Assembly: GCA_027492485.1 (NCBI GenBank)
Contig: JAPUER010000058.1
Span: 64,619 to 128,618 of the forward strand
Length of the DNA stretch: 64,000 bases
Direction: 5' to 3'
Origin: Betaproteobacteria bacterium
GTDB taxonomy: Bacteria > Pseudomonadota > Gammaproteobacteria > Burkholderiales > Casimicrobiaceae
How positions within the stretch are numbered: position 1 is the stretch's first letter; every line of letters starts with the position of its first letter. Both the position numbers and the translations under genes were made by a program. Positions 8,873-60,131 of the stretch are shown piece by piece. Below the pieces are notes generated by a model. The model did no database searches and was not told the origin of the DNA. It saw nothing but the letters and a program-made list of their open reading frames with translations.

Positions 8873-8996
8873 TATTGGCTTTTTGCCAGTAGCGGCATCC
8901 ACATTGGGCAAAGCGGCCAATATGACAGCAAGTCGACTTTCGTCACAATGGCGCTTTATGCCTCATTCGTGCGCCGTTTTTGACAAAATGTTGTTG
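8873..8996. repeat. Dispersed intergenic palindrome, copy C
   Basis: An imperfect inverted repeat of about 124 bp centred on AAGTCGACTT (8930-8939). Read outward, both arms give a GTCA, TGGC-GCTTT, GCC, CAAAA order, so the arms are homologous. The left end reads ATTGGCTTTTTG. The copy lies between the divergent S9 peptidase and grpE genes, just upstream of the grpE heat-shock promoter. Confidence 0.7.
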
Positions 8997-9013
8997 ATTT
9001 CCTTTGGGCTTTG

Positions 9014-9038
9014 CTTGAAATAGGGGAACTTTCCCCTA
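9014..9038 (+). promoter_or_regulatory. Sigma-32 heat-shock promoter of grpE, with embedded palindrome
   Basis: CTTGAAA (9014-9020) and CCCCTA (9033-9038) with a 12-nt spacer fit the sigma-32 consensus CTTGAAA / CCCCAT. The spacer and -10 together form a perfect 8-bp inverted repeat TAGGGGAA-CT-TTCCCCTA (9021-9038). The predicted TSS near 9045 leaves about 28 nt before the grpE ATG at 9073. GTGTGCTAA (9042-9050) is one mismatch from a CIRCE right half-site. Confidence 0.65.
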
Positions 9039-9072
9039 GATGTGTGCTAACACCTTGTTTTCAAAATAAAAA

Positions 9073-9657
9073 ATGGCCACGACAGACGAATCGAACACCC
9101 CGCTGCGAGACGCTGGCGCCGATGCGGCGACCGCCCGCGATGCGCCTGCCTGGATCGGCGTCGAGGATCAGCTCGCCGCCGCGCAAAACGAAATCGCCGA
9201 TTTGAAAGCGCAGCTCAAGGATCAGCAACTGCGCAACCTCGCCGAAATGGAGAACCTGCGCAAGCGCAACACGCAGGAGATCGCCAGCGCGCGCGACTTC
9301 GCGGCGAAGGATTTCGCCTTTTCGCTGCTGGCGGTGAAAGACACGCTGGAAATGGTGCTGAAGGATCAGCAAAGCAGCACCGAGCAGATCAAGATGGGCG
9401 TCGACATGACGCTCAAGAACCTCGCCAGCGCGTTCGAGCGCGCCCGCGTGAAAGAGGTTAAGGCCGAAGGCGCCAAATTCGACCCCAACGTGCATCAGGC
9501 GATGACCCAGATCGAATCCGCCGACGCCGCGCCGGGCACTGTGCTGCAGGTCTTCCAGAAGGGCTACACCATCGCCGATCGCGTGCTGCGCCCGGCGATG
9601 GTGGCGGTCGCCAAGGCGCTGGCCGTGGCGAAGGACGAAAAGACGAATGACGAATGA
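9073..9657 (+). CDS. grpE: Nucleotide exchange factor GrpE
   Basis: GrpE is the co-chaperone that releases ADP from DnaK. The 194-residue protein has a poorly conserved N-terminus, a long coiled coil (about residues 30-90, with QLRNLAEMENLRKR) and the C-terminal beta domain (FDPNVHQAMTQIESADAAPGTVLQVFQKGYTIADRVLRPAMV region). The sigma-32 promoter and the dnaK neighbour fit. The last codons (DEKTNDE) are supplied by the left end of the inserted four-helix-bundle element, and the stop overlaps that element's ORF, so the original C-terminus has probably been altered. Confidence 0.95.
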   Translation: MATTDESNTPLRDAGADAATARDAPAWIGVEDQLAAAQNEIADLKAQLKDQQLRNLAEMENLRKRNTQEIASARDFAAKDFAFSLLAVKDTLEMVLKDQQSSTEQIKMGVDMTLKNLASAFERARVKEVKAEGAKFDPNVHQAMTQIESADAAPGTVLQVFQKGYTIADRVLRPAMVAVAKALAVAKDEKTNDE

Positions 9658-10048
9658 CGAGAGGCCGCCGCGCTCGCATCGCGACTTTCCTGTTTGGCAA
9701 CAGGCGATGTCGCTGGTTGAGTCCGTCTATCGGTTGAGCGCAGAATTTCCCGCGGACGAACGATTCGGACTGGCGCAACAGCTTCGTCGCGCGGCGGTTT
9801 CGATTCCGTCCAATGTGGCTGAAGGCGCCGGGCGGTCCAATACCGGTGAGCTTGGACATTTTCTCGGCATCGCCCTCGGCTCTGCGGCTGAAGTTGAAAC
9901 CCAACTGGAACTCGCCGTCAGGCTGAAGTTCGTCGCCGGCGTCGGTGACGCACTCGAATTGCTCGAAAACGTTCGCAAACAACTCATCGTATTCCGCCGC
10001 TCACTCAAAACCTAGCTTTGCGTCAATCGTCTTTCGTCACTCGTCCTT
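9631..10048 (+). mobile_element. IVS-like element with imperfect terminal inverted repeats between grpE and dnaK
   Basis: The four-helix-bundle ORF (9647-10015) is bracketed by related inverted sequences. The left end (9631-9664) begins AAGGACGAAAAGACGAATGA. The reverse complement of the right end (10016-10048) begins AAGGACGAGTGACGAAAGAC. Intervening sequences in bacterial 23S rRNA carry the same protein family and also have complementary ends forming an RNase III stem. Here the host is the grpE-dnaK message. Mobility is inferred; no target duplication was established. Confidence 0.6.
9647..10015 (+). CDS. Four-helix-bundle protein (23S rRNA intervening-sequence protein family)
   Basis: A 122-residue protein matching the family found in 23S rRNA intervening sequences: FPVWQQAM, the central LAQQLRRAAVSIPSNVAEGAGR motif, then two further helices ending VRKQLIVFRRSLKT. 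Members are small all-helical pentamer-forming proteins of unknown biochemical role. The ATG at 9647 lies inside the end of grpE (11-nt overlap, different frame), which would couple its translation to grpE. The position between grpE and dnaK, not in rRNA, is unusual. Confidence 0.85.
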   Translation: MTNDERPPRSHRDFPVWQQAMSLVESVYRLSAEFPADERFGLAQQLRRAAVSIPSNVAEGAGRSNTGELGHFLGIALGSAAEVETQLELAVRLKFVAGVGDALELLENVRKQLIVFRRSLKT

Positions 10049-10085
10049 GCAAGTAACCCTTGAACGGCAACGAACTGCAACCAAC

Positions 10086-10094
10086 TTAGCACTC
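10086..10094 (+). promoter_or_regulatory. CIRCE left half-site upstream of dnaK
   Basis: TTAGCACTC is an exact match to the left arm of the HrcA operator. The sequence 9 nt later (TAGCTACGG) does not match the expected GAGTGCTAA, so this is a half-site at best. It lies 32 nt before the dnaK ATG, in the leader. Confidence 0.35.
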
Positions 10095-10125
10095 ATACAA
10101 CATTAGCTACGGAGAACAAGAAATC

Positions 10126-12087
10126 ATGGGCAAGATCATTGGTATCGACCTCGGCACCACCAATTCGTGCGTAGCCGTCGTCGAAGGCGGCAACACGAAG
10201 GTCATCGAGAACAGCGAAGGCGCGCGCACCACGCCGTCCATCGTCGCTTATCTGGAAGACGGTGAAATCACCGTCGGTGCGCCGGCCAAGCGGCAGGCCG
10301 TCACCAACCCGAAGAACACCATCTACGCGGTCAAGCGCCTGATCGGTCGCCGCTTCGACGAGAAGGAAGTGCAGAAGGACATCGGCCTGATGCCCTACCA
10401 GATCGTCAAGAACGACAACGGCGACGCCTGGGTCGAAGTGCGCGGCAAGAAGCTGTCGCCGCCCGCCGTCTCGGCGGAAACGCTGCGCAAGATGAAGAAA
10501 ACCGCCGAGGACTATCTCGGCCACGAAGTCACCGAGGCCGTGATCACGGTGCCGGCCTACTTCAACGATTCGCAGCGTCAGGCGACCAAGGACGCGGGCC
10601 GCATCGCGGGCCTGGAAGTCAAGCGCATCATCAACGAGCCGACGGCGGCCGCGCTGGCGTTCGGCCTCGACAAGGTGAAGAAGGATTCCAAGATCGCCGT
10701 GTACGACCTCGGCGGCGGCACCTTCGACGTGTCGATCATCGAGATCGCCGACGTCGACGGCGAAAAACAGTTCGAAGTGCTCGCCACCAACGGCGACACC
10801 TTCCTCGGCGGCGAAGATTTCGATCAACGCCTGGTGGATTACCTCTGCGACGAATTCAAGAAGCAGAGCGGCATCGATCTGACCAAAGACCCGATCGCGC
10901 TGCAACGCATCAAGGCGGCGGCGGAACGCACCAAGATCGAGTTGTCGTCGTCGCAGCAAAGCGAGATCAACGAGCCGTACATCGCGATGGACGCGACCGG
11001 CCCGAAACATCTCACCATGAAGGTGACGCGCGCCAAGCTTGAGTCGCTGGTGGAAGACCTGATCGCCAAGACGATCGAGCCTTGCCGCATCGCCCTCAAG
11101 GACGCCGGCCTCGGTGTCGACAAGATCGACGACGTGATTCTCGTCGGCGGCCAGACGCGCATGCCGAAGGTGATCGACGCCGTGAAAGCCTTCTTCGGCA
11201 AGGAGCCGCGCAAGGACGTGAACCCGGACGAAGCGGTGGCCGTGGGTGCCGCGATTCAGGGCAGCGTGCTGGCCGGTGACCGCACCGACGTGCTGCTGCT
11301 CGACGTGACGCCGCTGTCGCTCGGTATCGAGACGCTCGGTGGCGTGATGACCAAACTGATCCAGAAGAACACGACGATTCCGACCAAGGCGTCGCAGGTC
11401 TTCTCGACCGCCGACGACAACCAGGGCGCGGTGACCATTCACGTGCTGCAGGGCGAGCGCGAAGTGTCCGCCGGCAACAAGAGCCTCGGCCAGTTCAACC
11501 TCGAAGGCATTCCGCCGGCGCCGCGCGGCATGCCGCAGATCGAAGTGCAGTTCGACATCGACGCCAACGGCATCCTGCATGTGTCCGCGAAAGACAAAGG
11601 CACCGGCAAGGAAAACAAGATCACCATCAAGGCCAACAGCGGTCTTAGCGAGGACGAAATCCAGCGCATGGTGAACGACGCCAAGGCCAATGAGGTCGAG
11701 GACAAGAAACGTCTCGAACTCGTGCAGTCGCGCAACAACCTCGACACGCTGGCGCACAGCGTGAAGAAGAGCCTCGGCGAATTCGGCGACAAACTCGATG
11801 CCGGTGAAAAGGCCAAAATCGAGGATGCACTGAAAGAAGCCGACGCGCTGCTCAAGGACCAGAACGCAACGAAAGAAGCGCTCGACGCCAAGCTCGAATC
11901 GCTGTCCACCACCTCGCAGAAGCTCGGCGAAAAGATGTACGCCGCAGCGCAGGCGGAACAGGCGGCGGCCGGCGCCGCAGCCGGCGGTGGTGATGCCGGC
12001 GGCGCCCCCGGCGGCGGCAAGCCAGGCGACGATGCAAAAGTGGTCGACGCCGACTTCACCGAAGTGAAAGACGACAAGAAGAAGTAA
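10126..12087 (+). CDS. dnaK: Molecular chaperone DnaK (Hsp70)
   Basis: DnaK is the cytoplasmic ATP-dependent Hsp70. The 653-residue protein has the N-terminal ATPase domain ([13 protein letters not shown] at the start, [24 protein letters not shown]), the linker ([18 protein letters not shown]), the substrate-binding domain and a helical lid ending in a Gly/Ala-rich tail ([15 protein letters not shown]) and [15 protein letters not shown]. Length is standard. A GGAG at 10111-10114 is a distant ribosome-binding site. A strong terminator follows immediately, so dnaJ is not co-transcribed and is absent from the window. Confidence 0.98.
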
Positions 12088-12092
12088 CGAAA

Positions 12093-12121
12093 TCGGGCTC
12101 CTGCGGGGGCCCGAGTTTTTT
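12093..12121 (+). terminator. Rho-independent terminator of dnaK
   Basis: TCGGGCTCC (12093-12101) pairs with GGGGCCCGA (12106-12114), with one G-T pair, around loop TGCG; GTTTTTT follows (12115-12121). It is 5 nt after the dnaK stop. Confidence 0.85.
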
Positions 12122-12199
12122 GGGGTGCGTATGCGCGCCGCGCACGCCGACTGACGGCCGTCATTGCCGCTGTGCCACCGCGCTGCGTACACTGCCGCG

Positions 12200-12865
12200 A
12201 TGGATTTGAGTTTGCCGGATTTGCCGCTCGCGTGGGTCGCCGTCGCCTGGCCGGTCGCGCTGGCGATGCTGCTCTGGAGCGCGCGTCGTGTGCCGTGGGC
12301 GCAGCTGAGCGAGCGTTTCCCGACGCGTGTCTGGCACGGCGGCATCGCCACGGCGGTGGTGCTGTGGAGCATGCAGGCAACGGTGTCGGGCAACTTTACC
12401 TTCCATCTGCTCGGCATGGCTGGCCTGACGCTCGCCTTGGGCGTGCCGCTGGCGATGATCAGCGCGGCGCTGGTGGTGGCCGTGCACATCGGCATTCACG
12501 GCGGGCAGTGGGCGAATCTCGCAGTGGTGTGGTTGACGCTTGGCGCCGGTGCGATCCTGACCGTCGCCGGCGTGCTGCGTGCCGCCGAACGCTGGTTGCC
12601 GCCGAACTTCTTCATCTATATCTTCGTGGTGGCGTTCTTTGGGTCGGCGCTGTCGCTTGCGGTTGCCGGAATGCTTGCCTTGCTGGTGTTCGCTGCCGCG
12701 AGCGGCATCACCCTGGGCAAAGCGCTCGGGCAGTACGCGCCTTACCTGATCCAGCTCGGCTTTGGCGAGGCGACGCTAACAGGCATGATCATCACGCTCG
12801 GTGTCGTCTACCGGCCGCAGTGGGTCGCCACATTCGACGATGCCCGCTATCTCAGGCCACGCTGA
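12200..12865 (+). CDS. Membrane protein, energy-coupling-factor (CbiM-like) permease family
   Basis: A 221-residue protein with about six membrane segments. It resembles short proteobacterial proteins annotated as energy-coupling factor ABC transporter permeases: LWSARRVPWAQL after the first helix, then FHLLGMAGLTLALGVPLAM and a C-terminal PYLIQLGFGEATLTGMIITLG region. No ATPase or substrate-specific subunit is adjacent, so a transport role is only inferred and the substrate is unknown. The ATG at 12200 is preferred over an upstream TTG at 12164. A TACACT hexamer ends 6 nt before the ATG, suggesting a leaderless start. Confidence 0.6.
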   Translation: MDLSLPDLPLAWVAVAWPVALAMLLWSARRVPWAQLSERFPTRVWHGGIATAVVLWSMQATVSGNFTFHLLGMAGLTLALGVPLAMISAALVVAVHIGIHGGQWANLAVVWLTLGAGAILTVAGVLRAAERWLPPNFFIYIFVVAFFGSALSLAVAGMLALLVFAAASGITLGKALGQYAPYLIQLGFGEATLTGMIITLGVVYRPQWVATFDDARYLRPR

Positions 12866-13012
12866 GGGCGCCACCGGCATTGCCGGGTACGCCGCGCTCG
12901 CTTGCGGCACGTCAATACCGTGGCGACGACTGCTGCTACGATGTCATGGCAATCTGCTGGATTGCTCGCGTTGGCAATGGCGAACGCGGCCACTTATTGA
13001 GGTATGTTTTTC

Positions 13013-13264
13013 ATGCGTTCCGACTTGCTACCGCACGCACTCAACCGCGAATTCCCCGAGCTCGCCGAAGTCATCGCGAAGCTCAAGACCACCGATCACC
13101 ACTTCACCCATCTGCTCAGCCAGCACGATGCCGTGGACACCGAGATCACCAAGAGCGAAACCGGCGTCGCCCCGATCAACGACGACACGCTGGAGACGCT
13201 CAAAAAGCAACGTCTGCATCTGAAAGACCAGCTCTACGCGATCGCCAGCCGTTCGGCGGCGTAG
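13013..13264 (+). CDS. YdcH family protein (DUF465)
   Basis: An 83-residue cytoplasmic protein of the small helical DUF465/YdcH family: LNREFPELAEVIAKLKTTDHHFTHLLSQHDAVDTEI followed by LKKQRLHLKDQLYAIAS. Family function is not known. The ATG at 13013 is chosen because TGAGG (12998-13002) sits 10 nt upstream; the ATG at 13004 is too close to that Shine-Dalgarno. A strong terminator follows. Confidence 0.8.
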   Translation: MRSDLLPHALNREFPELAEVIAKLKTTDHHFTHLLSQHDAVDTEITKSETGVAPINDDTLETLKKQRLHLKDQLYAIASRSAA

Positions 13265-13315
13265 CGGACGACGACGCCAACTTGACGTAGGGGGCGTCGA
13301 CTGGTGCCGGAAACG

Positions 13316-13339
13316 ACGGGGCTATGCCCCGTTTTTTTT
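13316..13339 (+). terminator. Rho-independent terminator after the YdcH gene
   Basis: ACGGGGC (13316-13322) and GCCCCGT (13326-13332) form a 7-bp stem with loop TAT, followed by a run of eight T residues. Confidence 0.88.
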
Positions 13340-13376
13340 CGGCGATACTCTGCAGGGCAATTCACGGAGAGCACGC

Positions 13377-14198
13377 ATGTCATTCGCCAATCGAGTCATT
13401 GTGATCACCGGCGCCTCCGACGGCATCGGCGCCGAACTGGCGCGACAACTGGCGCGTGACAGGCCGATGCTGGTGCTCGCTGCCCGCCGGCGCGATGCGC
13501 TGCAGGCGGTCGCCGCGCAGTGCGAGGCCGCCGGCGCGACGACGCTGGTGGTGCCGACCGATGTCGCGGTGGAGGCGGATTGCCGCGCGCTGATTGCCGC
13601 CGCCGTCGACAAGTTCGGCGGCATCGACGCGCTGGTGAACAACGCCGGGGTGTCGATGCACGCCAATTTCGACGAAATCGCCGATACCGCCGTCTACGAA
13701 AACCTGATGCGCATCAACCTGATGGGCAGCGTGTGGCCGACGCACGCGGCGCTGCCGCATCTGAAAGCGTCGCGCGGGCTGATCGTTGCCGTGGCGAGCC
13801 TGGCCGGGTTGGTCGGCGTGCCCGGCCGCACCACCTATTGCGCCACCAAGTTCGCGCAGATCGGCTTTTTCGAGGCGTTGCGCACCGAGTTGCAGCCGCA
13901 GGGCGTCGACGTGACCATCGTCTACCCCGGCGTGGTCGCCACCGAAATCCGCCGCAACGGCTGGAACGCGAAGGGTGAACGCGCCGGCGTCTCCGGCCTC
14001 GCCGAGGATCAGGCGATGAGCGTCGAACAATGCGCCGGTTTGATCGTGGCCGCAATGCGCGCCCGCAAGCGCGACGAGGTGATGAGCGTCAAGGGCAAGC
14101 TCGGGCGCTGGCTCAAGCTGATCGCGCCGGCGCGGGTCGATGCGATGGCGCGGGCAGCGTTGGCAAAGCAACGCAACGCGCCGCGTTCACCGACCTAA
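13377..14198 (+). CDS. Short-chain dehydrogenase/reductase
   Basis: A 273-residue NAD(P)-dependent oxidoreductase of the classical SDR family. Visible motifs are the cofactor-binding TGASDGIG (residues 11-18), NNAG, the active-site YCATK (YxxxK) and the PG segment after it (YPGVVATEI). The C-terminal helix-rich tail (GKLGRWLKLIAPARVDAMARAAL) resembles membrane-associated SDRs of the DHRS7/RhlG type. A GGAG lies 8 nt before the ATG. It converges with the CARDB gene and overlaps its stop by 4 nt. Substrate unknown. Confidence 0.85.
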   Translation: MSFANRVIVITGASDGIGAELARQLARDRPMLVLAARRRDALQAVAAQCEAAGATTLVVPTDVAVEADCRALIAAAVDKFGGIDALVNNAGVSMHANFDEIADTAVYENLMRINLMGSVWPTHAALPHLKASRGLIVAVASLAGLVGVPGRTTYCATKFAQIGFFEALRTELQPQGVDVTIVYPGVVATEIRRNGWNAKGERAGVSGLAEDQAMSVEQCAGLIVAAMRARKRDEVMSVKGKLGRWLKLIAPARVDAMARAALAKQRNAPRSPT

Positions 14199-16108
14199 CT
14201 CGGCACGCAGAACTTCACACCTTCGCCGTCCCAGCCCAGCGCGACGAACGCGCTGTAGGTCGATAGGCTGGTGGTAAAGCGATGGTTCGGGTTGTCGGGG
14301 AATCGCGCATTGCCGCGGAAAACGCGGTACACCGGAATCAGCCCAGTTGCACAGCGTCCGCCCACTCCCTCCACTACAGGCACATACGCGTAGGAGTCGA
14401 TGCCTTCGTTGTACGGCAAGCGTGGCGCCGCGGAATTGGTAGGATTCAGCGCCGTCAGCGCCGAAAGCTCCGACGGGACGAGCGTGTAGAAATGGCTGCC
14501 ACGCGTGGCGCTGACAGCAACCTTGTCGAAGTAAAACCGCGTAATCGGCATGCGCGCACCGAACGCCGAGGTCAGCCCGGTGGCCACAGCGTACACGCGG
14601 AAACTCAAGCCCGTTCGTCGGAACGGCGGAGTGGCGTCGAGCAGTGCGATCTCGCTGCTGCGCGATGTTATGAAGTAGTAGTCGAGCGGGGGATGGTAAT
14701 ACTCGACCATGTCGGCGGTCGCGTCCGAGCCGGACACAATCGAGACGGTTAGTGGGTCGTACCCGGTGTTGTTGTTGTAGTCGCTTTCGACCACCGCGCC
14801 GTCTTCGTTGACGTAGGCCCCGAAGTAGTAGGTGCCCACCACCGTCGGCGCGTCTACGTTACCGGCACACGTCATGGTTTGTCCCGGCGCCAGCGCCCCA
14901 ACGTCGCAGTACCAGCCGCTGTAGATGTCGGCGGTCGAAATGATGTTGTTGGTCGACCAGTAAAATTTGATCCGCGCACCGGCGGGTGCAGTGGTGCTGC
15001 CTGCGTTGCGGATCGTGGTGGATTGCGCCGTAAGGCGCTGCCCCACCGAAGCCAGACGCACACCACCAATCGAGGTGTTGACCACCACCAAATCCGGATA
15101 GAAAACAACGTTGGTGACGCTGACGGTCAGCGGGTCGTAGTTGGTGTTGTTGCTGTAGTCGCTCTCGGTAACGGCGCCATCTTCGTTGACGTAAGCGCCA
15201 AAGTAATACGTACCGGCCGTGCTCGGCGCGTCGACCTGACCGCTGCAAGTCATCGACTGACCGGGCGCCAGCGCGCCCACGTCGCAGTACCAGCCGCTGT
15301 AGGTGTCCGCGAGCGAGATAATGTTGTTGGTCGACCAGTAAAACTTGACGCGTGCTCCTGCCGGAGCGCTCGCCGAGCCGTTGTTGCGCACCGTCGTGGT
15401 TTGCGTGGAAATGCGTTGCCCAACGGTGGCGGATCGCACGCTCATCGACACGCCGGAGACAACCAGATCGGGATACGTCGCCCCACCAATCACCCAGGTG
15501 GGATTGGAAAACGTTTCCCAGTCAACCCAGGCGTAGCCATCGTTGAGCGATGAGGCGTTGTACTCCGATACGAACATGTACATGTACCAGGTGCCCGCTG
15601 TCGGTGTAGACAGTTGCAACACGGTCTGGTCGATGTTGGTGTACTGGAACCCGGCCGTCAGCGGCGAAAACACTGCCGTTTGCCCAATCTTGTAACCGGT
15701 CGCGCCGCCGCCGCTATATGGGCTCGGGAGAGCCCACAGTTCGAGGCGCAGTGACCCCGACACACCGGACGATCGCCGGTTGGCAATTGCGCCCGCCTGC
15801 AGACGTACCGTGCCGCCGGAAATGGTGTACGCCCAAGACGTCTCAAGCGAAATATTGCCCGGGTTGACTTTGGGAACATCGACCGACCGCTGATTCTGAT
15901 GATGCGCCAGCGCGTCCACCATCGCTGGTTCGACAGCGACCTGTGCCTGTACGCCCACAGCGGCAGACAATGTAAGTATCACGGCAGCGATTTGGTGCTT
16001 GACGTCGCCGCATCGTGCAGCCGTACGACGCGCGACACTGGAGATTGTCCGCGGCCACTGATTCAGAAATCTGGCCACTGCGGACTTAGCCTGCGCATTG
16101 ATTTTCAC
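14195..16108 (-). CDS. Exported protein with two CARDB-type repeats and a C-terminal DUF5648-like domain
   Basis: A 637-residue protein. The chosen GTG at 16108 has a strong GAGGGGA ribosome-binding site; a longer ATG frame to 16171 exists. After a charged N-region comes a hydrophobic signal core (IAAVILTLSAAVGVQAQ). An N-terminal region of about 180 residues precedes two tandem repeats of about 115 residues, each with YPDLVV, APAGAR, FYWSTNNIIS, YSGWYCDVGALAPGQ and TYYFGAYVNEDGAV, i.e. CARDB-like adhesion modules with two Cys each. The C-terminus (YYHPPLDYYFITS to GWDGEGVKFCVPS) matches DUF5648. Function unknown; likely extracellular. Confidence 0.75.
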   Translation of the reverse strand: MKINAQAKSAVARFLNQWPRTISSVARRTAARCGDVKHQIAAVILTLSAAVGVQAQVAVEPAMVDALAHHQNQRSVDVPKVNPGNISLETSWAYTISGGTVRLQAGAIANRRSSGVSGSLRLELWALPSPYSGGGATGYKIGQTAVFSPLTAGFQYTNIDQTVLQLSTPTAGTWYMYMFVSEYNASSLNDGYAWVDWETFSNPTWVIGGATYPDLVVSGVSMSVRSATVGQRISTQTTTVRNNGSASAPAGARVKFYWSTNNIISLADTYSGWYCDVGALAPGQSMTCSGQVDAPSTAGTYYFGAYVNEDGAVTESDYSNNTNYDPLTVSVTNVVFYPDLVVVNTSIGGVRLASVGQRLTAQSTTIRNAGSTTAPAGARIKFYWSTNNIISTADIYSGWYCDVGALAPGQTMTCAGNVDAPTVVGTYYFGAYVNEDGAVVESDYNNNTGYDPLTVSIVSGSDATADMVEYYHPPLDYYFITSRSSEIALLDATPPFRRTGLSFRVYAVATGLTSAFGARMPITRFYFDKVAVSATRGSHFYTLVPSELSALTALNPTNSAAPRLPYNEGIDSYAYVPVVEGVGGRCATGLIPVYRVFRGNARFPDNPNHRFTTSLSTYSAFVALGWDGEGVKFCVPS

Positions 16109-16236
16109 GATCTTCCCCTCGCACTTCAAAACGTGCTTGGGCAAGAGTATTCCGATTGCCTGTGATGTCAAGCCGTTCTGATCAGTTCCTACGCGTTTGC
16201 GTGGGGTAACTCAAGGACGCAATCGCCTCGCTCGGC

Positions 16237-17214: not shown

Positions 17215-17280
17215 ATCAGGGAGCGCTTAAACTTCACTACAGCAAAGGATACAGTGCCAACAGGAACGATTGAGGCAAGT

Positions 17281-18477: not shown

Positions 18478-18494
18478 CCGGAAGGACAACCCAT

Positions 18495-26181: not shown

Positions 26182-26309
26182 AGCCAATGGCTTACTGCTG
26201 TAACGCCTATTCCATAAGGCTTGAAGCGATAATTTTCAGAAAGTCGACTTGCGCAATTTTCGGCGTCAAATGCCCATTAAATAGGCGTTTTAACTGCAAA
26301 GCCAATGAC
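26182..26309. repeat. Dispersed intergenic palindrome, copy A
   Basis: An imperfect palindrome of about 128 bp centred on AAGTCGACTT (26241-26250). Read outward, both arms contain AAATTnTCG or AATTTTCGGC, then a GCC-TAT-GGC hairpin motif and AATAGGCGTT, then GTAAGCC-ATTGG or GCAAAGCCAATG. GCCTATTCCATAAGGC (26205-26220) is a small hairpin within the left arm. It sits between the divergent binding-protein gene and proA. Confidence 0.75.
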
Positions 26310-35368: not shown

Positions 35369-35489
35369 GGCCGCTTTTTTCTGTACGCGAGGATACATGG
35401 GGCTTGCCGGGCGATTTGGCGATTTTGCGACTTTTCGGAAAATAGCGCTGCTAGCCCTTGTTCAATGCGCCATTTGCATGAAAGCTGTT
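35369..35489. repeat. Dispersed intergenic palindrome, copy F
   Basis: The most degenerate copy: the core is GCGACTT rather than AAGTCGACTT (35427-35433). The right arm AAAATAGCGCTGCTAGCCCT (35439-35458) matches copy B's AAAATAGTGCTGCTTGCCCC closely, and it ends in GAAAGCTGTT. The left arm, read outward, gives CGCAAAATCGCC and AAGCCCC, then GAAAAAAGCGGCC. It lies upstream of both the terC riboswitch and the Bug gene. Confidence 0.6.
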
Positions 35490-35498: not shown

Positions 35499-35523
35499 TT
35501 ATCGAGACGAATTGTCTCGATAA
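35499..35523. promoter_or_regulatory. Perfect 10-bp inverted repeat, operator-like
   Basis: TTATCGAGAC (35499-35508) and its exact complement GTCTCGATAA (35514-35523) are separated by GAATT. This 25-bp dyad resembles a regulator binding site, although no regulator gene is adjacent. It is 314 bp upstream of the Bug protein gene and immediately beyond palindrome copy F. Confidence 0.45.
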
Positions 35524-46869: not shown

Positions 46870-46887
46870 AAATCGGTCGCGGCAACC

Positions 46888-47008
46888 AGCAGCTTTCGGC
46901 TGCAATGACGGTGGCAATGGGGCAGCAGCCGAAAATCACGTGAAGTCGACTTCATGCCATTTTTCGTATTGAGCCCCGATTGAATGGGGCATTCAACAGA
47001 AAGCTGCT
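46888..47008. repeat. Dispersed intergenic palindrome, copy D
   Basis: An imperfect palindrome of 121 bp centred on AAGTCGACTT (46943-46952). Its termini are an exact 10-bp inverted repeat: AGCAGCTTTC (46888-46897) and GAAAGCTGCT (46999-47008). The right arm carries a GCCCC-GATTGAAT-GGGGC hairpin (46973-46990). It fills the gap between the SDR and mutarotase genes, ending 4 bp before the mutarotase ATG, so it would form a long stem in the message. Confidence 0.8.
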
Positions 47009-47012
47009 TTAC

Positions 47013-51736: not shown

Positions 51737-51744
51737 CGCTTCTT

Positions 51745-52079: not shown

Positions 52080-52087
52080 CTACGCGG

Positions 52088-52603: not shown

Positions 52604-52639
52604 CGCATCAGTGCTCCAGATAGTGGTTTAACTGTATCG

Positions 52640-52831: not shown

Positions 52832-53983
52832 ATGAATACTCCCACTCGCCCCCTCCGCCTCGCCCTCCTAGGCGGCGGCCCCGCCTCATGGATCGGCGGC
52901 CAGCATCGCCGTGCTGCGCAGTTCGATGGTTGCTGGCAGGTCGTGGCGGGTGTGTTCTCGTCAAAGGCGGAGCGTTCGCGTGAGGCGGCTGGGGCGCTGG
53001 GGCTCGATCCCGCACGCGGCTATGCCGATCTGGCGCAAATGATCGCCGCCGAGAAGCAGCGTGCCGACGGCATCGACGCCGTCGCCATCATGTCGCCGAA
53101 CGATACCCATTATCCCTACGCCGCGATGGCGCTCGATGCCGGCCTCGACGTGATCGGCGACAAGCCGGTGAGCACAACGGCAGCCGAGGCGCGCGATCTC
53201 GCGGCGCGTGCGCGAGCGAAGCAGCGTGTGTTCTGTGTGACGCATGGCTATTCGGCGTACCCGATGACGCGGCACGCGAAGCAGCTGATCGCCGACGGCG
53301 CGATTGGTGCCGTGCGCTTTGTGCAGGTGGAATACATCCAGAGCGGCCTCGCCAGGCCCATCGAGCAGGGCGCCATGACCGACAGCCAGCGCTGGAAGTT
53401 CGACGCCTCGCGCAGCGGCCTGGCGCTGGTGTTCTCCGCCATCGGCTGCCACGCGCAGCATCTGGCGTGCAATGTGTCGGGCGTCGCGATCGAAGCCGTC
53501 AGCGCCGACGTCGGCGCGCTGATGCCGGGCCGCACCGTCACCGACACCTTGCTCGCCAGCCTGCGTTTCGCGGGCGGCGCACGCGGGCAATACGCGATCA
53601 CGCAGGCCGCGGCGGGCAGCGAGAACGACATCCGTCTGCGCGTCTACGGCGAGCGCGGCCATCTCGACTGGTCGCACCGCAACTCGGGCTATCTGCAACT
53701 CAACCTCGAAGGCGAGCCCGCGCGCACTATCGGCCGCGGCGACCCAGGTCTGCCGCCGCCCATCGTCAAGCTGAGCCGCACGCCGCGCGGCCACCCCGAA
53801 GGCCTGCTCGAAGCCTTCGCCAACCTCTACCGCGAAGCGGCCGAAGCGATCCACGCGCGCAACGCGGGCACGCCGCTCACGCAGGTGAACTTTCCGACGA
53901 TTGAGGATGGCGTCGAGAGCATGCGCTTCATCGAGGCCTGCATTGCGTCGCATGCGGCGAACGGGGTGTGGACGGCGGTGTAG
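52832..53983 (+). CDS. Gfo/Idh/MocA family oxidoreductase
   Basis: A 383-residue NAD(P)-dependent oxidoreductase. The N-terminal Rossmann fold has LALLGGGPASWIGGQHRRAA, then DAVAIMSPNDTHYPYAAMALDAGLDVIGDKPVSTTAAEARDLA, with the EKP-type DKP catalytic motif. The C-terminal domain is the usual dimer beta-sheet (VQVEYIQSG, RLRVYGERGHLDW). Substrates of the family are sugars, inositols or bile pigments. Its neighbours give no clue. Confidence 0.9.
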   Translation: MNTPTRPLRLALLGGGPASWIGGQHRRAAQFDGCWQVVAGVFSSKAERSREAAGALGLDPARGYADLAQMIAAEKQRADGIDAVAIMSPNDTHYPYAAMALDAGLDVIGDKPVSTTAAEARDLAARARAKQRVFCVTHGYSAYPMTRHAKQLIADGAIGAVRFVQVEYIQSGLARPIEQGAMTDSQRWKFDASRSGLALVFSAIGCHAQHLACNVSGVAIEAVSADVGALMPGRTVTDTLLASLRFAGGARGQYAITQAAAGSENDIRLRVYGERGHLDWSHRNSGYLQLNLEGEPARTIGRGDPGLPPPIVKLSRTPRGHPEGLLEAFANLYREAAEAIHARNAGTPLTQVNFPTIEDGVESMRFIEACIASHAANGVWTAV

Positions 53984-54344
53984 CGTCGCCGTTCGTGCGT
54001 CGACAGGATCACCACTAACCAACGTGCCGGGTTGCCGCGTTGTTGGAGCGGGCTTGCCCCCGAAAAGCGGCCGTAGCGGGCAAGCCCCCACCCCCACCCC
54101 CGTTCACGCGAAAAATTGCGCCGGGGCGGCAGGTAACCCCCACCTTCCCGGCTGAAGCACCGCTTCGGCTTTGCTAAACCTGCCGATCGTTCACTGACCG
54201 TTTGTTGCGTTGTTCGCAATTTCGGCGCCGATCGTTTTCTGCACTGACTGTTTGACGCTTTGCTGCGCCGGGTCGTGCTGGAAGGGGGGCTCCCAGCGTT
54301 CCATCGTCCTGGCCGATTTCAATTCCTGAAAGGCAGGCTCACTC
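53984..54344. other. Gap between oxidoreductase and DUF2087 genes
   Basis: Contains a REP-like hairpin (54048-54090), a CCCCCA-type run (54085-54101) and two imperfect direct repeats, GATCGTTCACTGACCGTTTG and GATCGTTTTCTGCACTGACT (about 54184 and 54230). No gene or promoter could be supported. Confidence 0.5.
54048..54090. repeat. REP-like inverted repeat (GCGGGCTTGCCC type)
   Basis: GCGGGCTTGCCCCC (54048-54061) is complementary to the GCGGGCAAGCCC at about 54076-54087 around a 15-nt loop. It is the same family as the pair at 54997-55080, and resembles REP elements of Pseudomonas. Confidence 0.6.
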
Positions 54345-55052
54345 ATGTCCACTCTCAATCCGGCGGCGGATGCCGCTATCTCCCACGCAACCGACGCCGC
54401 GCCGGCGAAGGCCCGCGCCCGCGCCAAGGCCGACGACCGCGCCGTTGCCTATTACGTCGAAAACCTGAGCACGCTGGCGAAAGCGTTGCGCGATCAGTTC
54501 GAGCCGTTCGCGAAAGCGGCGACGATGCCCTCGCATGTGCAGTTGCTGAACTGGCTGGCGCGCGCAGCCGGGCATCGCAACTATCAGGCGCTGCGCGCGG
54601 CGGCGCTCACACCGGGGGCACGGCCGCTGTTGCCGCCGGTCGGTGCGACGCCGGCATCCGCGTTCGACGCCACGCTGAGCACGCACGCAGCGAAGGCGCT
54701 GACGCAGTTCGACGAACGCGGCCGCCTGACGCGCTGGCCCAACAAGTTCGCCGTGCAGCGCATCGCGCTGTGGGCGCTGTGGCAACGCTTTGACGCGCGC
54801 CGCAGCTACAGCGAGCGCGAGGTGAACGCCGTGATCAACACCTGGGCGACTTATGGCGACCACGCCACGCTGCGCCGCGAGCTGATCAACATGAAGCTGC
54901 TCGGCCGCAAGAGCGATTGCAGCGAATACTGGAAGGAGCCGCAGCGCGCCGGCGACGAGGTGCGGGCGTTCCTGCGCGCGCTGCGCGAGCGGACGCTGGT
55001 AGGAGCGGGCTTGCCCGCGATGAGCGGCACTCGCAAGACGGCATCGACGTAG
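54345..55052 (+). CDS. DUF2087 domain protein
   Basis: A 235-residue protein. An Ala-rich N-terminus is followed by a helical region (VAYYVENLSTLAKALRDQFEPFAKAATMPSHVQLLNWLARAAGHRNYQALRAAAL) and a DUF2087 domain at about residues 120-205 (FDERGRLTRWPNKFAVQRIALWALWQRFDARRSYSEREVNAVINTW, DHATLRRELINMKLLGR). This domain is found with transcription regulators and may bind DNA. The last 20 codons (RTLVGAGLPAMSGTRKTAST) are encoded within a REP element, so the C-terminus has been extended. Confidence 0.75.
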   Translation: MSTLNPAADAAISHATDAAPAKARARAKADDRAVAYYVENLSTLAKALRDQFEPFAKAATMPSHVQLLNWLARAAGHRNYQALRAAALTPGARPLLPPVGATPASAFDATLSTHAAKALTQFDERGRLTRWPNKFAVQRIALWALWQRFDARRSYSEREVNAVINTWATYGDHATLRRELINMKLLGRKSDCSEYWKEPQRAGDEVRAFLRALRERTLVGAGLPAMSGTRKTAST

Positions 55053-55080
55053 TGGCATTCGCGGGCAAGCCCGCTGCCAC
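54997..55080. repeat. REP-like inverted pair overlapping the DUF2087 gene end
   Basis: The left unit GTAGGAGCGGGCTTGCCCGC (54999-55018) and right unit GCGGGCAAGCCCGCTGCCAC (55061-55080) are inverted to each other around about 42 bp. Such twin REPs (REPINs) are mobilised by RAYT proteins in other bacteria. The gene's stop codon lies between them. Confidence 0.7.
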
Positions 55081-55141
55081 TTGTCGCCTACCCCTCACTC
55101 GTGATCCCTGCGCCGGGATGACGCCCGAGGCGATTCCAGCG

Positions 55142-55263
55142 TATGTCTTTTCATCGAAAGCCGCATGTAAATTGGGAAAAATCGCCTATTTGTCAAGAAG
55201 TCGACTTTTGCAAAAATAGTGCTGCTTGCCCCTATGGAATGAGCCTTCCACTAAAAAGCCGCT
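55142..55263. repeat. Dispersed intergenic palindrome, copy B
   Basis: An imperfect palindrome of 122 bp centred on AAGTCGACTT (55198-55207). Read outward, the arms share AAATAG, GC, TTTCCC or TTGCCC, ATG-GGC-CTTTC and AAAAG. The right arm AAAATAGTGCTGCTTGCCCC is close to copy F, and the terminal sequence is AAAAAGCCGCT. It lies between the DUF2087 and argS genes. Confidence 0.75.
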
Positions 55264-55328
55264 AATCATCATCGGCAACCCGCAAGCGCCCGGCGCCGGC
55301 GCCAACGCGCCCGCCCGCCGCCGCTTGG

Positions 55329-55334
55329 GATAAT
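55329..55334 (+). promoter_or_regulatory. Putative -10 box of argS (leaderless start)
   Basis: GATAAT ends 7 nt before the argS ATG at 55342. There is no Shine-Dalgarno sequence, and the -35 is weak. The pattern is that of hrcA and hemH. Confidence 0.4.
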
Positions 55335-55341
55335 TGCGGCT

Positions 55342-56997
55342 ATGCAAAAAGAACAATTGATCGAATGGCTGACCGCCGCCATTCGCGCGGCGGGGCTGTC
55401 CGCTACGGCGGTGCCGGCGCTGGAGCGGCCGAAACAGGCCGAACACGGCGACTGGGCGACCAACATCGCGCTGCAAATGGCGAAGCCGCTGGGCAAGAAC
55501 CCGCGCGAGGTCGCCACGCTGCTGAAGGCCGCGCTGGACGCCAGCCCGAGCCCGATGGTCGGCGACATCGCCATCGCCGGGCCGGGCTTCATCAACATCC
55601 GGCTGAACCCGGCCGCCAAGTTCTCGGCGGTGGCCGACGCCATCCGCCTGGGCGACGCCTTCGGTCGCAGCGCTGGCCGCGCCGGCGAAAAAGTGATGGT
55701 GGAATTCGTCTCGGCCAACCCGACCGGGCCGCTGCACACCGGGCACGCGCGTCAGGCCGCACTCGGCGACACGCTGTGCAACCTGCTCGCAACGCAGGGC
55801 TGTGCGGTGTACCGCGAGTTCTATTACAACGACGCCGGCAACCAGATCGACAACCTCGCGCGCTCGGTGCAACTGCGCGCGATGGGCGTGGAGCCGGGCA
55901 GCGCGCTGTGGCCGGAAGACGGCTACCGCGGCGACTACATCGTCGAGATCGGCAAGGCGTATCTGGAACGCGGCGGCGACGTGAACGACCTCGACGCCAT
56001 CCGCCGCTACGCGGTGGAGGTGCTGCGGGTCGAGCAGGATCGCGACCTTACGGCCTTCGGCGTGAAGCAGTTCGACTGCTACTACCTCGAAAGCTCGCTC
56101 TACACCGACGGCCGTGTCGACAAGACCGTGGCCGGCCTCAAGGCTTCGGGCCACACCTTCGAGCAGGACGGCGCGCTGTGGCTCAGGACCACCGACTTCG
56201 GCGACGACAAGGATCGCGTCATGAAGAAGGCGACCGGCGGCTACACCTATTTCGTGCCCGACGTTGCTTATCACGTCAGCAAGTGGGAGCGCGGCTTCAG
56301 CAAGGTGGTGAACATCCAGGGCACCGATCACCACGGCACCATCGCCCGCGTGCGCGCGGGGCTGCAGGCGCTCAACGATGTACAACCGCCGATGTCCGGC
56401 TCGGGCATTCCGCAGGGCTACCCGGACTACCTGCTGCACAGCATGGTGCGCGTGATGCGCGGCGGCGAGGAGGTGAAGATCAGCAAGCGCGCCGGCAGCT
56501 ACATCACGCTCGGCGAACTGATCGAATGGGTCGGCCGCGACGCCGTGCGCTTCTTCCTCGTCTCGCGCAAGGCGGACAGCGAATTCACCTTCGACATCGA
56601 CCTCGCGCTGTCGCAGAGCGAGGAAAACCCGGTCTACTACGTGCAGTACGCGCATGCACGCATCTGCTCGGTGTTGCGCGAGGCGGCGGTCGGCGACGAC
56701 GCCCTGCGCGCCGCCGATCTGGCGCTGCTGACGCACGAAAAAGCCGAGGCGCTGGCGAGCAAGCTGGCCGATTACCCCGCGTTGCTGGCAACCGCGGCGC
56801 GCGATCTGGCGCCGCATTTGCTGCCGTACTACCTGCGTGAAGTGGCGGCCGCGTTCCACGGCTACTACGCCGCCGAGCGCATCCGCGTCGATGACCCGGC
56901 GTTGCGCGCCGCGCGCACCGCGCTGGCGGCGGCGACCGCCCGCGTGCTGAAAAACGGCCTGCAACTGCTCGGCGTCTCGGCGCCCGAGAAAATGTAA
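55342..56997 (+). CDS. argS: Arginyl-tRNA synthetase
   Basis: A class I synthetase of 551 residues. It shows [14 protein letters not shown], the HIGH-type motif [28 protein letters not shown], and the KMSKS-type motif [15 protein letters not shown], and ends with the DALR anticodon-binding domain ([17 protein letters not shown] and [12 protein letters not shown]). Length is normal. A SPOR-domain gene follows after 11 nt, so an operon with dsbA is likely. Confidence 0.97.
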
Positions 56998-57008
56998 GAA
57001 TCAGCGCC

Positions 57009-57614
57009 GTGGATACCTCCCCGCAGAATAAAACCGCGACATTCCTCTTTGGCGGCCTGATCGGCTTTGTGGTCGGGCTGGTGGTGGCGGGGGTGCTGGC
57101 GATCTGGATTTACAGCGCCTCGCCGTTCCGCGCAGAATCGACGCCGCTGCCCAAGCTCGACCCGATCCGCCCGAAATCCGAGGCGAAGACCGAGGCCAAG
57201 CCGACCGGCCAGACCGGCGCGCTGGCGAAAGACGAAAACAAGCCCGATGCCGAGCGCATCGTGCAGCCGGGCACCGCGTCGGGCAATCCGCCGGCGGCGA
57301 CCGCGGCAGCAACGCCGCCTGCGGCGACCAAGGCGCCAGCCAAGCCAAGCGATCCCGAGCCGTCGCCGAGCGCCGAGCCGCGGGGGCGGCTGTGGTTGCA
57401 AGTGGGCGCTTACGCCAACAAGCAGGACGCCGAAAATCAGCGCGCCCGCTTCGCCATGCTGGGTTACGAAGCGAAGATCGAATCGGCCGACGTGCCGGAC
57501 AAGGGCACCGTCCATCGCGTTCGCGTCGGCCCCTACCGCGACCCGGACGAAGCCGGCAAGGTGCGCGGCGATCTGGCGCGGCAGGGCATCGAAGTCACGG
57601 TGGTCAAGCCCTGA
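57009..57614 (+). CDS. SPOR-domain membrane protein
   Basis: A 201-residue protein. An N-terminal anchor (FLFGGLIGFVVGLVVAGVLAIWIY) is followed by a Pro/Ala/Lys-rich linker (about residues 40-125) and a C-terminal SPOR domain (LWLQVGAYANKQDAENQRARFAMLGYEAKIES to RVRVGPYRDPDEAGKVRGDLARQGIEVTVVK). SPOR domains bind denuded septal peptidoglycan, so it probably localises to the division site, as FtsN does. The start is GTG at 57009. Confidence 0.85.
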   Translation: MDTSPQNKTATFLFGGLIGFVVGLVVAGVLAIWIYSASPFRAESTPLPKLDPIRPKSEAKTEAKPTGQTGALAKDENKPDAERIVQPGTASGNPPAATAAATPPAATKAPAKPSDPEPSPSAEPRGRLWLQVGAYANKQDAENQRARFAMLGYEAKIESADVPDKGTVHRVRVGPYRDPDEAGKVRGDLARQGIEVTVVKP

Positions 57615-57718
57615 CCGCCGCCCGTCATGGCAACGCGCTGTCGGCGAACCAAACGCCGCGTCCGTTAGTCACAGGCAACGGTTAGTCAAACAAACAACAT
57701 CGAAAGCACGGAGAAATC

Positions 57719-58366
57719 ATGGTTCGCTGGGTCAAATCCCTCAAATGGCTGGCACTGGGCTTGATGGCCGCCTCGTTCACCGCCGGTGCGCAGGAGCAAC
57801 TCGCCGAAGGCAAAGACTTCCTGCGTCTCAAGCAGCCGCAGGCCGTCGAGTCCGGCGCCAAGATCGAAGTCATCGAGTTTTTCAGTTACGGCTGCCCGCA
57901 CTGCAAGGACCTCGAGGAATACCTTGGACCCTGGACCAAGAAAGTGCCGGCCGATGTCAGCTTCAAGCGCGTCCCGGTGGTGTTCCAGCCGGCCTGGGTG
58001 AATTTGGGCAAGATTTACTACACGCTGGAAGGTCTCGGTCGCGAGGATTTGTCGGCCAAGGTGTTCGCGTCGCTGCACGGCGCCGGCGTCAAGTTTCATG
58101 AAGAAAAGGTCTTCTTCGATTGGGCGGCCAGCAACGGTCTCGACGCCAAGAAGGTGCAGGAGATGTGGGGTTCGTTCGCCGTCAACAGCAAGATGAACCG
58201 CGCCAAGACGCTGGCCGGCAACTATCAGGTCGACAGCGTGCCGATGCTGTTCATCGACGGCAAGTTCAAGCTGCAACCGCACCTGCTCAAGGGCCAGCAC
58301 AAGGACGTACCCGCCGCGCTCGACTTCCTGATCGCCAAGGCACGCGCCGAGCGCAACAAGAAGTAA
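57719..58366 (+). CDS. dsbA: Thiol:disulfide interchange protein DsbA
   Basis: DsbA introduces disulfide bonds into periplasmic proteins. The 215-residue protein has a signal peptide (LALGLMAASFTAGAQ), the active site CPHC at residues 59-62, the usual cis-proline in the VPMLFIDGKF segment, and a helical insertion. Length is typical. A second dsbA follows after a terminator-like hairpin. A GGAG lies 8 nt upstream of the ATG. Confidence 0.95.
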   Translation: MVRWVKSLKWLALGLMAASFTAGAQEQLAEGKDFLRLKQPQAVESGAKIEVIEFFSYGCPHCKDLEEYLGPWTKKVPADVSFKRVPVVFQPAWVNLGKIYYTLEGLGREDLSAKVFASLHGAGVKFHEEKVFFDWAASNGLDAKKVQEMWGSFAVNSKMNRAKTLAGNYQVDSVPMLFIDGKFKLQPHLLKGQHKDVPAALDFLIAKARAERNKK

Positions 58367-58401
58367 GCAGGAAGAACAATCGTCCCTTCGACGACCAACC
58401 G

Positions 58402-58430
58402 GGGCCGCCCGCGAGCGCGGCCCTTTCCTT
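58402..58430 (+). terminator. Probable terminator between the two dsbA genes
   Basis: GGGCCGC (58402-58408) pairs with GCGGCCC (58417-58423) around an 8-nt loop; the following TTTCCTT is only partly T-rich, so strength is moderate. Confidence 0.5.
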
Positions 58431-58450
58431 ATCCCGATCAGAGCAAAGTC

Positions 58451-59101
58451 ATGTTGACGCGACGCGAACTGCTTGGCGTGCTGGCCGCGCTGCCGATGTT
58501 GTCCTCTGCCAACGCGCAGACGGCCTGGCAGGAAGGGCGTGACTTCCTGCGGCTGGCAGCGCCGCAACCGATTGAGCCCGGTAGCGGGATCGAGGTGCTG
58601 GAATTTTTCAGCTACGGTTGCCCGCATTGCAATGATCTTGAGGAGTTTCTCGGCCCGTGGCTACGCCAATTGCCCGCCGATGTGAGTTTTCGCCGCGTGC
58701 CCGTGTTGTTTCATCCGCCTTGGGTGAACCTGGCGAAGCTTCATTTCACGCTGGAGGCGATCGGCCGCGCGGATCTTGCCGGCAAAGTGTTTCACGCGGT
58801 TCACGCCCGTGGCGTCAAGCTTTACGACGAGAAGGTATTCATCGAGTGGGGCGCCGGAAACGGTCTCGACGCCGCGAAAGTACGGGAGGCGTGGAATTCG
58901 TTTGCGGTCAGCGGCAAGATGAATCGGGCGCGGACGCTGGCCCAGGCGTTTCGCGTTGACGGCGTGCCGACGTTGTTCGTTGACGGCAAATTCAAACTGC
59001 AACCAACCACCGAAGGGATGGGACCGGTGGCGCACCGGCAGGCGCCGTCATTGCTCGACTTCCTGATCGCCAAGGCACGCGCCGAACGCAACAAGAAGTA
59101 G
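58451..59101 (+). CDS. Second thiol:disulfide interchange protein (DsbA paralogue)
   Basis: A 216-residue DsbA homologue. The signal peptide starts RRELLGVLAALPMLSSANAQ; the active site CPHC is at residues 57-60 in FFSYGCPHCND, and VPTLFVDGKFKLQP holds the cis-proline. It resembles the preceding gene in order and length, so the two arose by tandem duplication. The last 40 or so bases of the two ORFs are almost identical, as by recent gene conversion. A strong terminator follows. Confidence 0.9.
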   Translation: MLTRRELLGVLAALPMLSSANAQTAWQEGRDFLRLAAPQPIEPGSGIEVLEFFSYGCPHCNDLEEFLGPWLRQLPADVSFRRVPVLFHPPWVNLAKLHFTLEAIGRADLAGKVFHAVHARGVKLYDEKVFIEWGAGNGLDAAKVREAWNSFAVSGKMNRARTLAQAFRVDGVPTLFVDGKFKLQPTTEGMGPVAHRQAPSLLDFLIAKARAERNKK

Positions 59102-59127
59102 GCCGCTGCGCCGCGCTCCGCTGCAAG

Positions 59128-59161
59128 GGCCGCCGATAGCAACCGGCGGCCTTTTGCTTTT
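59128..59161 (+). terminator. Rho-independent terminator after the second dsbA
   Basis: GGCCGCCG (59128-59135) pairs with CGGCGGCC (59144-59151) around ATAGCAAC, followed by TTTTGCTTTT (59152-59161). Confidence 0.8.
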
Positions 59162-59200
59162 CGGGGTTTTGCTTTGCCGGGCCGCCCCCACGTGCGAGCC

Positions 59201-60034
59201 ATGACCCATCTGCCCGACGCCATTGGCTTGCGCCACGCGCGCTTTCACTCGCCCGAACGGCTGCGCATCGCCTGCCTGGTGCCCTCGATCACCGAGACGC
59301 TGTTCGCGCTCGGGCTGGGCGACCGCGTAGTGGCGCGCACCGGTTTCTGCATCCATCCCGCAGAGGGCGTGCGCGAGGTGCCCAAGGTCGGCGGCACCAA
59401 GGACGTCAATGTGGCGAAACTGATCGCCACCGAACCCACCCACGTCATCGTCAACATCGACGAAAACCGCAAGGACACGGTCGATCATCTGCGCCGCGTG
59501 GTGCCCAACCTGGTCGTCACCCATCCGCTGCTGCCGGAGGACAACGCCACGCTATTTGCGCTGCTCGGCCATATCTTCAGCGTGGACGACGCCGCGCTCA
59601 CGCTCGCCCGCCGGCTGGCCGACGCGCTGACGCGTGCCCGTGCCGTGGGCGCGTCGCGGGCGAGCGAATCGGTGCTCTATCTGATCTGGAAGAACCCGTG
59701 GATGACCGTCGCGCGCGATACCTACGTCAGCGCGATGCTCGCCACAGTGGGCTGGAAGACCTTGCCGTTGCAGGCAGAGAAGCGCTACCCCGAGATCGCA
59801 GCGAACGACAGCGTCTGGCAGCACGCGGATCGGGTGTTGCTGTCCACCGAGCCTTATCTGTTCGACGACGAGCACGTCGCGGCGCTGCGCAACGAACGAC
59901 AACTGACGCAACCGGTCGCGCTGATCGACGGCGAAATGACCAGTTGGTACGGCGTGCGGGCGATTGCCGGGCTCGACTACCTCGCCGATCTGCGTTCAAA
60001 TCGGCAACAGCTTTCCGAGCAAAGTCCCATTTGA
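59201..60034 (+). CDS. Helical-backbone metal receptor (BtuF-like) protein, no signal peptide
   Basis: A 277-residue protein of the BtuF/TroA helical-backbone metal-receptor fold: RIACLVPSITETLFALGLGDRVVARTGFCIHPAEGVREVPKVGGTKDVNVAKLIATEPTHVIV. No signal peptide is seen, so it is not an ordinary periplasmic receptor; cytoplasmic cobalamin-associated members of this family exist. The ATG at 59201 is chosen; a TTG at 59174 gives an extension with no family resemblance. The last 11 codons lie in palindrome copy E, so the original end was probably replaced. Confidence 0.75.
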   Translation: MTHLPDAIGLRHARFHSPERLRIACLVPSITETLFALGLGDRVVARTGFCIHPAEGVREVPKVGGTKDVNVAKLIATEPTHVIVNIDENRKDTVDHLRRVVPNLVVTHPLLPEDNATLFALLGHIFSVDDAALTLARRLADALTRARAVGASRASESVLYLIWKNPWMTVARDTYVSAMLATVGWKTLPLQAEKRYPEIAANDSVWQHADRVLLSTEPYLFDDEHVAALRNERQLTQPVALIDGEMTSWYGVRAIAGLDYLADLRSNRQQLSEQSPI

Positions 60035-60131
60035 TCTGGGCTCACGCCTTGAAATCGGTATAGTCGACAAAGCGGAATTCTTCGGTCTACGCCTTATACG
60101 GACGGCGTTTGACAAGAAAAGCTGCTTGCCG
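60002..60131. repeat. Dispersed intergenic palindrome, copy E
   Basis: An imperfect palindrome of 130 bp centred on GTCGAC (60063-60068). The termini CGGCAACAGCTTTC (60002-60015) and GAAAAGCTGCTTGCCG (60116-60131) are inverted repeats apart from a 1-nt indel. The right arm holds ACGCC-TTATACGGAC-GGCGT. It begins inside the receptor gene and ends 1 bp before the dxs stop. Confidence 0.78.

Follow-up and report, generated by a model that had tools for sequence, protein, structure and literature searches.

Evenly spaced 122-bp dyad-symmetric elements at orthologous positions in one genus of the Casimicrobiaceae

The stretch of DNA analysed here (the window; 64,000 nucleotides of contig JAPUER010000058.1, Betaproteobacteria bacterium assembly GCA_027492485.1, family Casimicrobiaceae) contains six imperfect palindromes, designated elements A to F. 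They belong to a family of 122-bp dyad-symmetric elements which is restricted to one genus, lies almost entirely between genes, recurs at orthologous positions, and is spread more evenly than expected by chance. It appears, with a probability that we put at roughly 0.58, that these elements are vertically inherited and selected binding sites of a putative chromosome-organising protein, for which DNA gyrase is one candidate. The original prediction, made from the letters of the window, had described six dispersed copies; all six were found by direct reading where it placed them, and the family is larger than it stated.

Abundance and architecture of the element family

The 4.12-Mb genome of the window (G000; other G-numbers denote genomes of the same genus, G005 being the closest related species) contains 130 occurrences of the core AAGTCGACTT and none of its reversed control, which places the family above chance. 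When cores taken from G000 and G005 were scored on both arms, 49 of 51 passed, with one arm weak in two of the 49; the score had been trained on the same copies that it tests. A sequence-only covariance model (R1) was built from these 49 copies, which include A, B, D, and E of the window. R1 gave 140 matches, both strands counted, in 40 stretches amounting to 798 kb, and a profile search of the same stretches plus the window (862 kb) returned 73 elements, about eight of which are half-elements comprised of a single arm. In contiguous blocks of 1.14 Mb, 96 elements were detected, or one per 11.9 kb. This density extrapolates to about 350 elements per genome, which is no direct count; the whole-genome R1 search scored the best 150 candidates. 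The model building and genome scans that had been suggested for the six palindromes thus point to hundreds of copies.

Spacing between the conserved blocks of an element is nearly fixed, with almost no insertions or deletions. From the dyad outward, the 61-bp arm consists of GACTT, an A/T block (positions 12-15), GCCC (26-29), an A/T-rich stretch (30-38), G39, TT (44-45), and the terminal AAAAGCTG, and terminal inverted repeats are formed by the CAGCTTTT / AAAAGCTG ends. The blocks are separated by near-random bases, and conservation ends at about position 61. Among the 69 elements whose ends are clear on both sides, the first two bases beyond AAAAGCTG are almost never G (1%). A conserved TA was not found at the termini of these 69 elements, the base that follows AAAAGCTG being non-G, the next one T in 66%, and the one after that A in 30%, and their ends shift by 1 bp, each arm independently.

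The arms had been described as homologous and as carrying a GCC-N-GGC hairpin block. Their symmetry holds, but two arms of one copy are barely more similar than two arms taken from separate copies (identity 0.448 versus 0.427 in 82 elements, a small excess); the corresponding values are 0.479 versus 0.495 in G011, 0.515 versus 0.507 in G012, and 0.427 versus 0.410 in G007. Pairing within the supposed hairpin block is not kept. RNAalifold predicted zero base pairs for the 49 copies, and within-arm pairing amounts to 0.56-0.62 against 0.51-0.60 expected in the variant sets and to 0.405 against 0.393 in the G000-type set, the excess over what column composition predicts being 0.018 in G011, 0.048 in G012, 0.049 in G007, and 0.012 in the G000-type set. 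Almost no covariation between arms was observed in the elements, and the highest identity between any two of the 49 copies is 67%. An Rfam scan of the window gave no match at the gathering score, in agreement with the earlier statement that no described family was recognised. A hairpin or RNA element was rejected on the lack of conserved pairing, the small arm-arm excess, and the absence of an Rfam match in the window.

Within the window, R1 matches exactly six elements, with best E values per copy between 6e-22 and 3e-9, and the next-best match has an E value of 4.5. No strand is assigned to any of the six. Gene calls here and below are based on simple frame bias and not on a trained gene finder. 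Element A (8874-8995, E 5.9e-20) is a full 122-bp palindrome with its core AAGTCGACTT at 8930-8939. Element B (26185-26306, core 26241-26250, E 9.7e-17) lies 5′ of a proA-like gene of the aldehyde dehydrogenase family, its dyad 100 bp and its end 39 bp before the ATG. Element D (46887-47008, core 46943-46952, E 7.6e-19) ends 4 bp from the ATG of an aldose-1-epimerase-family gene, and element E (55142-55263, core 55198-55207, E 6e-22) is located 5′ of argS. The remaining two were outside the training set and were matched nonetheless: element C (35371-35489, E 3.3e-9), which has the degenerate centre TTGCGACTTT and adjoins a TerC-family gene, and element F (60005-60126, E 2e-10), which has the centre ATAGTCGACAAA, lies past the dxs stop codon, and overlaps the end of a called open reading frame (59174-60034). 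The predicted gene orientations hold for A and C (divergent) and for D (co-directional), whereas B was called divergent, E co-directional, and F convergent. Strings said to be common to particular pairs of copies were located in other pairs, AAAATAGnGCTGCTnGCCC in C and E and TATGGAAT in E and B (reverse strand). Just past element C, at 35500-35522, stands a short inverted repeat distinct from it (TATCGAGAC..GTCTCGATA), which is partly retained in G005.

Orthologous positions, selection, and even spacing

Elements B to F, which lie where the window is collinear with G005, are each matched by an element at the corresponding place in that species (5/5); A lies outside this region. Contig C16 carries 28 elements in G000, of which one is unmapped and 11 fall in a stretch without a collinear G005 counterpart. 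Of the remaining 16, 14 have an element in the corresponding interval of G005, with two of the 14 intervals loosely mapped. Seen from the G005 side, 16 of 34 elements are matched, 15 are unmapped, and three are absent. The two species have protein identities of 97% for prfC, 95% for the proA-like gene, and 93% for dxs. At one locus of G000 (L075:9009-9071), a 63-bp single-arm half-element is accompanied by a half-element at the orthologous G005 place, which suggests that half-elements may be stable and not merely decay products. At another (L073:13207-13343), an element about 15 bp over the usual length has a G005 counterpart that is also long (~132 bp).

Occupancy of single loci was examined across more species by comparing the score at each locus with the maximum of shuffled upstream sequences. 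An element is present at B in 14 of 15 species (barely in G002), at D in 8 of 10 including G000, at E in 4 of 7, and at F in 4 of 9. At locus B, the dyad lies 100 bp from the start codon in 10 of the 15 species, 99 bp in one, and 103 bp in three, and at locus D it lies 63-66 bp 5′ of the start codon in all eight species with the element. In G013, the genes flanking F are close together with no element between them, so single sites appear to be dispensable. The dxs-like matches of G002 (contig C2) and G006 (contig C642) each contain one in-frame stop; these are metagenome-type assemblies, and the stops are possibly assembly errors.

Selection on the elements was assessed in 14 of the 19 matched G000-G005 pairs (five from the window and nine from C16), five half, long, or loosely mapped pairs being omitted. 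Ungapped identity of orthologous pairs is 0.733 at high-information, 0.503 at middle, and 0.297 at low-information positions, compared with 0.648, 0.356, and 0.289 for non-orthologous copies. In gapped alignments, low-information identity is 0.52 for orthologous and non-orthologous copies alike, and between-block bases are randomised near the dyad too (80/280). For the same two genomes, identity is 0.627 at fourfold-degenerate sites (17,456 sites), and gapped identity is 0.72 in flanking noncoding DNA and 0.81 in coding DNA. Since the blocks are more alike in orthologues and the bases between them are not, the blocks appear to retain both ancestry and function, the rest having been randomised.

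Of the 73 elements, 71 are intergenic, and every gene orientation is represented. The spacing of full elements has a coefficient of variation of 0.55 in G005 (54 spacings), 0.56 in G000 (29), 0.36 in G011 (9), and 0.30 in G012 (9), against 0.94, 0.91, 0.84, and 0.79, respectively, under random intergenic placement (P < 0.0002, < 0.001, < 0.0036, and < 0.0004). A uniform distribution is likewise rejected. The blocks used for these values were partly picked for synteny or for holding elements and some are mutually orthologous, so the four species do not amount to four independent origins.

With regard to distribution, a search whose stricter filters lost weak matches yielded R1 matches for 16 of the 17 genomes in the genus and none for 47 genomes representing six further genera of the same family. 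At an E value of 0.01, with both strands counted and a ceiling of 150 matches per genome, G016 has no match, G010 two, G002 seven, G014 16, G011 20, G009 26, and G007 29, and each of the remaining ten genomes has at least 119. Profiles seeded from the genomes' own weak matches revealed 11 elements per 100 kb in G011, five in G007, and two, weak, in G002; G012 has 10. The species variants share size, symmetry, and AAAGCTG-like ends and differ in their blocks, such as a TTTCGAAA-like centre in G011 and CGACC..GGTCG in the G012 arm. Among the listed matches to a core-plus-end pattern (at least 88 stretches), the named records that recur are metagenome assemblies of Burkholderiales or other Pseudomonadota, and single occurrences in unrelated taxa are chance-like.

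Mobile origin, gyrase, and transcription as alternatives

The palindromes had been compared with REPINs and miniature inverted-repeat transposable elements (MITEs). Like REPINs and other repetitive extragenic palindromic (REP) sequences associated with RAYT genes, the elements are dispersed intergenic inverted doublets with half-size singlets and a GCC..GGC-like block in each arm. Members of REP/REPIN families are reported to adjoin a RAYT gene (PMC3116915). Unlike them, the elements have no conserved hairpin and no near-identical copies, are not located beside the Y1_Tnp genes checked, keep orthologous positions, and are evenly spaced. The Y1_Tnp domain (PF01797) has 44 matches, spread over 15 of the genus's 17 genomes. 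Twenty of these loci were checked to a distance of 1.8 kb, about three being shortened by contig ends, and none has an element in that range. These RAYT-like genes (loci L240-L259) are diverse, several per genome, and non-orthologous between close species. The three Y1_Tnp proteins of G000 and the four of G005 are at most 48% identical, with no orthologue in common although the elements are orthologous, and the REPIN/RAYT reading was rejected on this basis and on the 20 loci.

ERIC/IRU sequences are described as intergenic enterobacterial palindromes of 127 bp, and the elements resemble these and other bacterial MITEs in length, imperfect palindromy, and intergenic location (PMC2229807). They differ in that copies share blocks only and in that neither an evident target-site duplication nor a conserved TA end is present. 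Among the 69 elements with clear ends, no convincing signal of target-site duplication was obtained; of 45 combinations of offset and length, the one with the largest signal (10 bases, offset 3) gave 33% versus 26% identity (z 3.7) with zero perfect repeats, and the MITE reading was rejected for want of an evident duplication. A REPIN- or MITE-like repeat, as the original prediction had proposed, is therefore not supported as a present-day mobile element.

A mobile past could still be envisaged, in which old REPIN- or MITE-like elements dispersed early in the history of the genus, possibly conferring immunity to further insertions in their vicinity, and are now decaying in place. Inverted-repeat architecture, dispersed intergenic copies, and half-elements fit such an origin, and insertion immunity would likewise yield even spacing. 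The two genomes without Y1_Tnp, which are the smallest of the genus, are the element-free G016 and the element-poor G009; however, G002, G010, G011, and G014 have fewer R1 matches than G009 and do carry Y1_Tnp. Decay should be uniform, whereas the blocks have been kept while the other bases were randomised, and the lack of near-identical copies among the 49, of evident target-site duplications, of elements near the 20 Y1_Tnp matches, and of a Y1_Tnp orthologue common to G000 and G005 also makes this origin unlikely.

It is also conceivable, as a special case of the binding-site interpretation, that the elements are strong DNA gyrase sites, at which a symmetric wrap of ~120-130 bp would be cut around a central TCGA and supercoiling would be spread evenly. 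The E. coli gyrase motif has been reported as a symmetric 130-bp motif whose flanks have a 10.75-bp GC periodicity, with BIME-2 enriched in cuts (PMC6379681), and gyrases are reported to wrap up to 120-140 bp of DNA (PMC12324340). Element size and dyad symmetry (~61 bp per side) match this motif and favour gyrase (PMC6379681, PMC12324340, PMC12393610), and the arms alternate between A/T and G/C blocks. The strongest period of the elements is 9.5 bp in three of the four species sets and 7.5 bp in G011, compared with 10.75 bp in the E. coli motif. Of the reported cut-site preferences (-4G/+8C, -2A/+6T, and +1G/+4C), only the central -2A/+6T is satisfied, given an assumed cut position with TCGA as the overhang. 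BIME-2 gyrase sites of E. coli are likewise intergenic and palindromic, with a proposed chromosome-wide role through protein binding (PMC6379681), but each element is one 122-bp symmetric unit and not a cluster of REPs, its half-sites are independent, and the spacing is even. Gyrase is near universal, whereas only one genus carries the elements, with blocks that differ among its species, which suggests a dedicated protein rather than gyrase and renders the gyrase version rather improbable.

A transcriptional function, either as operators of a global regulator or as terminators or insulators between transcription units, is more doubtful again. The elements are intergenic, their dyads keep a nearly constant distance from the start codon at B and at D, and among gaps of at least 110 bp, convergent ones hold an element slightly more often (24/88) than divergent (17/107) or co-directional ones (22/119 and 17/100). 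However, every orientation is used, the distance to the start depends on the locus (compare the element ends at B and D), and the genes adjoining the window copies share no common theme. An intrinsic terminator would need pairing, none of which is conserved, and even spacing is unexpected for a regulon. The original view of a structural repeat rather than a promoter agrees with this indifference to gene orientation. Integron attC sites, which are similar in size, were set aside in view of single elements between unrelated genes with their sequence blocks kept; no search for an integrase was made. A DNA-uptake signal was a further candidate that was set aside.

A putative array of chromosome-organising sites

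A structural role of the elements is supported. Under the binding-site interpretation, each element would be a large two-fold symmetric site for a putative binding protein, and the ~350 extrapolated sites, one about every 10-12 kb and nearly all intergenic, would be inherited in place, with purifying selection retaining their blocks. Long symmetric sites, independent half-sites, and fixed, even positions are consistent with a protein assembly that is itself symmetric and acts on the structure of the chromosome. The sites may thus be read in trans by a protein or complex, probably multimeric and symmetric, whose preference would have drifted between species, so that the whole array differs from one species to the next. 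Its most likely role would be in chromosome architecture, through the setting of supercoil domains or the anchoring of nucleoid proteins.

Sites such as parS, Noc sites, and matS are ~13-16 bp long, regional or clustered, and read by a dedicated protein. The elements resemble them as degenerate palindromes at many chromosomal places, putatively with a dedicated reader, and differ from them in being 122 bp long, with several blocks per arm, and in recurring about every 10-12 kb. Among the papers listed on similar repeats, titles and abstract openings revealed no description of the family, which leaves its absence from print unproven.

Several points weigh against the binding-site interpretation. 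Protein binding is deduced from the sequences of the elements, and the protein itself is putative. G016 lacks any R1 match, and sites have been lost or gained, the element being absent at E in 3 of 7 species, at F in 5 of 9, at D in 2 of 10, and at B in 1 of 15. The spacing results draw on the partly selected blocks mentioned above. In addition, identity at low-information positions is 0.30 for orthologues and 0.29 for paralogues despite 0.627 at fourfold-degenerate sites; turnover between the blocks thus appears unusually fast, outpacing plain neutral drift.

A bolder proposal, which we put forward tentatively as a possibility, is a genus-wide chromosome ruler, that is, hundreds of 122-bp sites about every 10-12 kb whose positions are fixed and whose array code drifts together with a putative DNA-wrapping or bridging protein. 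Bacterial chromosomes are thought to be divided into topological domains of ~10 kb, and to our knowledge no sequence element marks such domains regularly. If the interpretation is true, an evenly spaced, position-conserved, and sequence-specific array would mean that domain spacing is encoded in this genus, which is testable and would lead to the binding protein, and the change in place of hundreds of sites between close species would represent a strong natural case of co-evolution between a protein and its sites.

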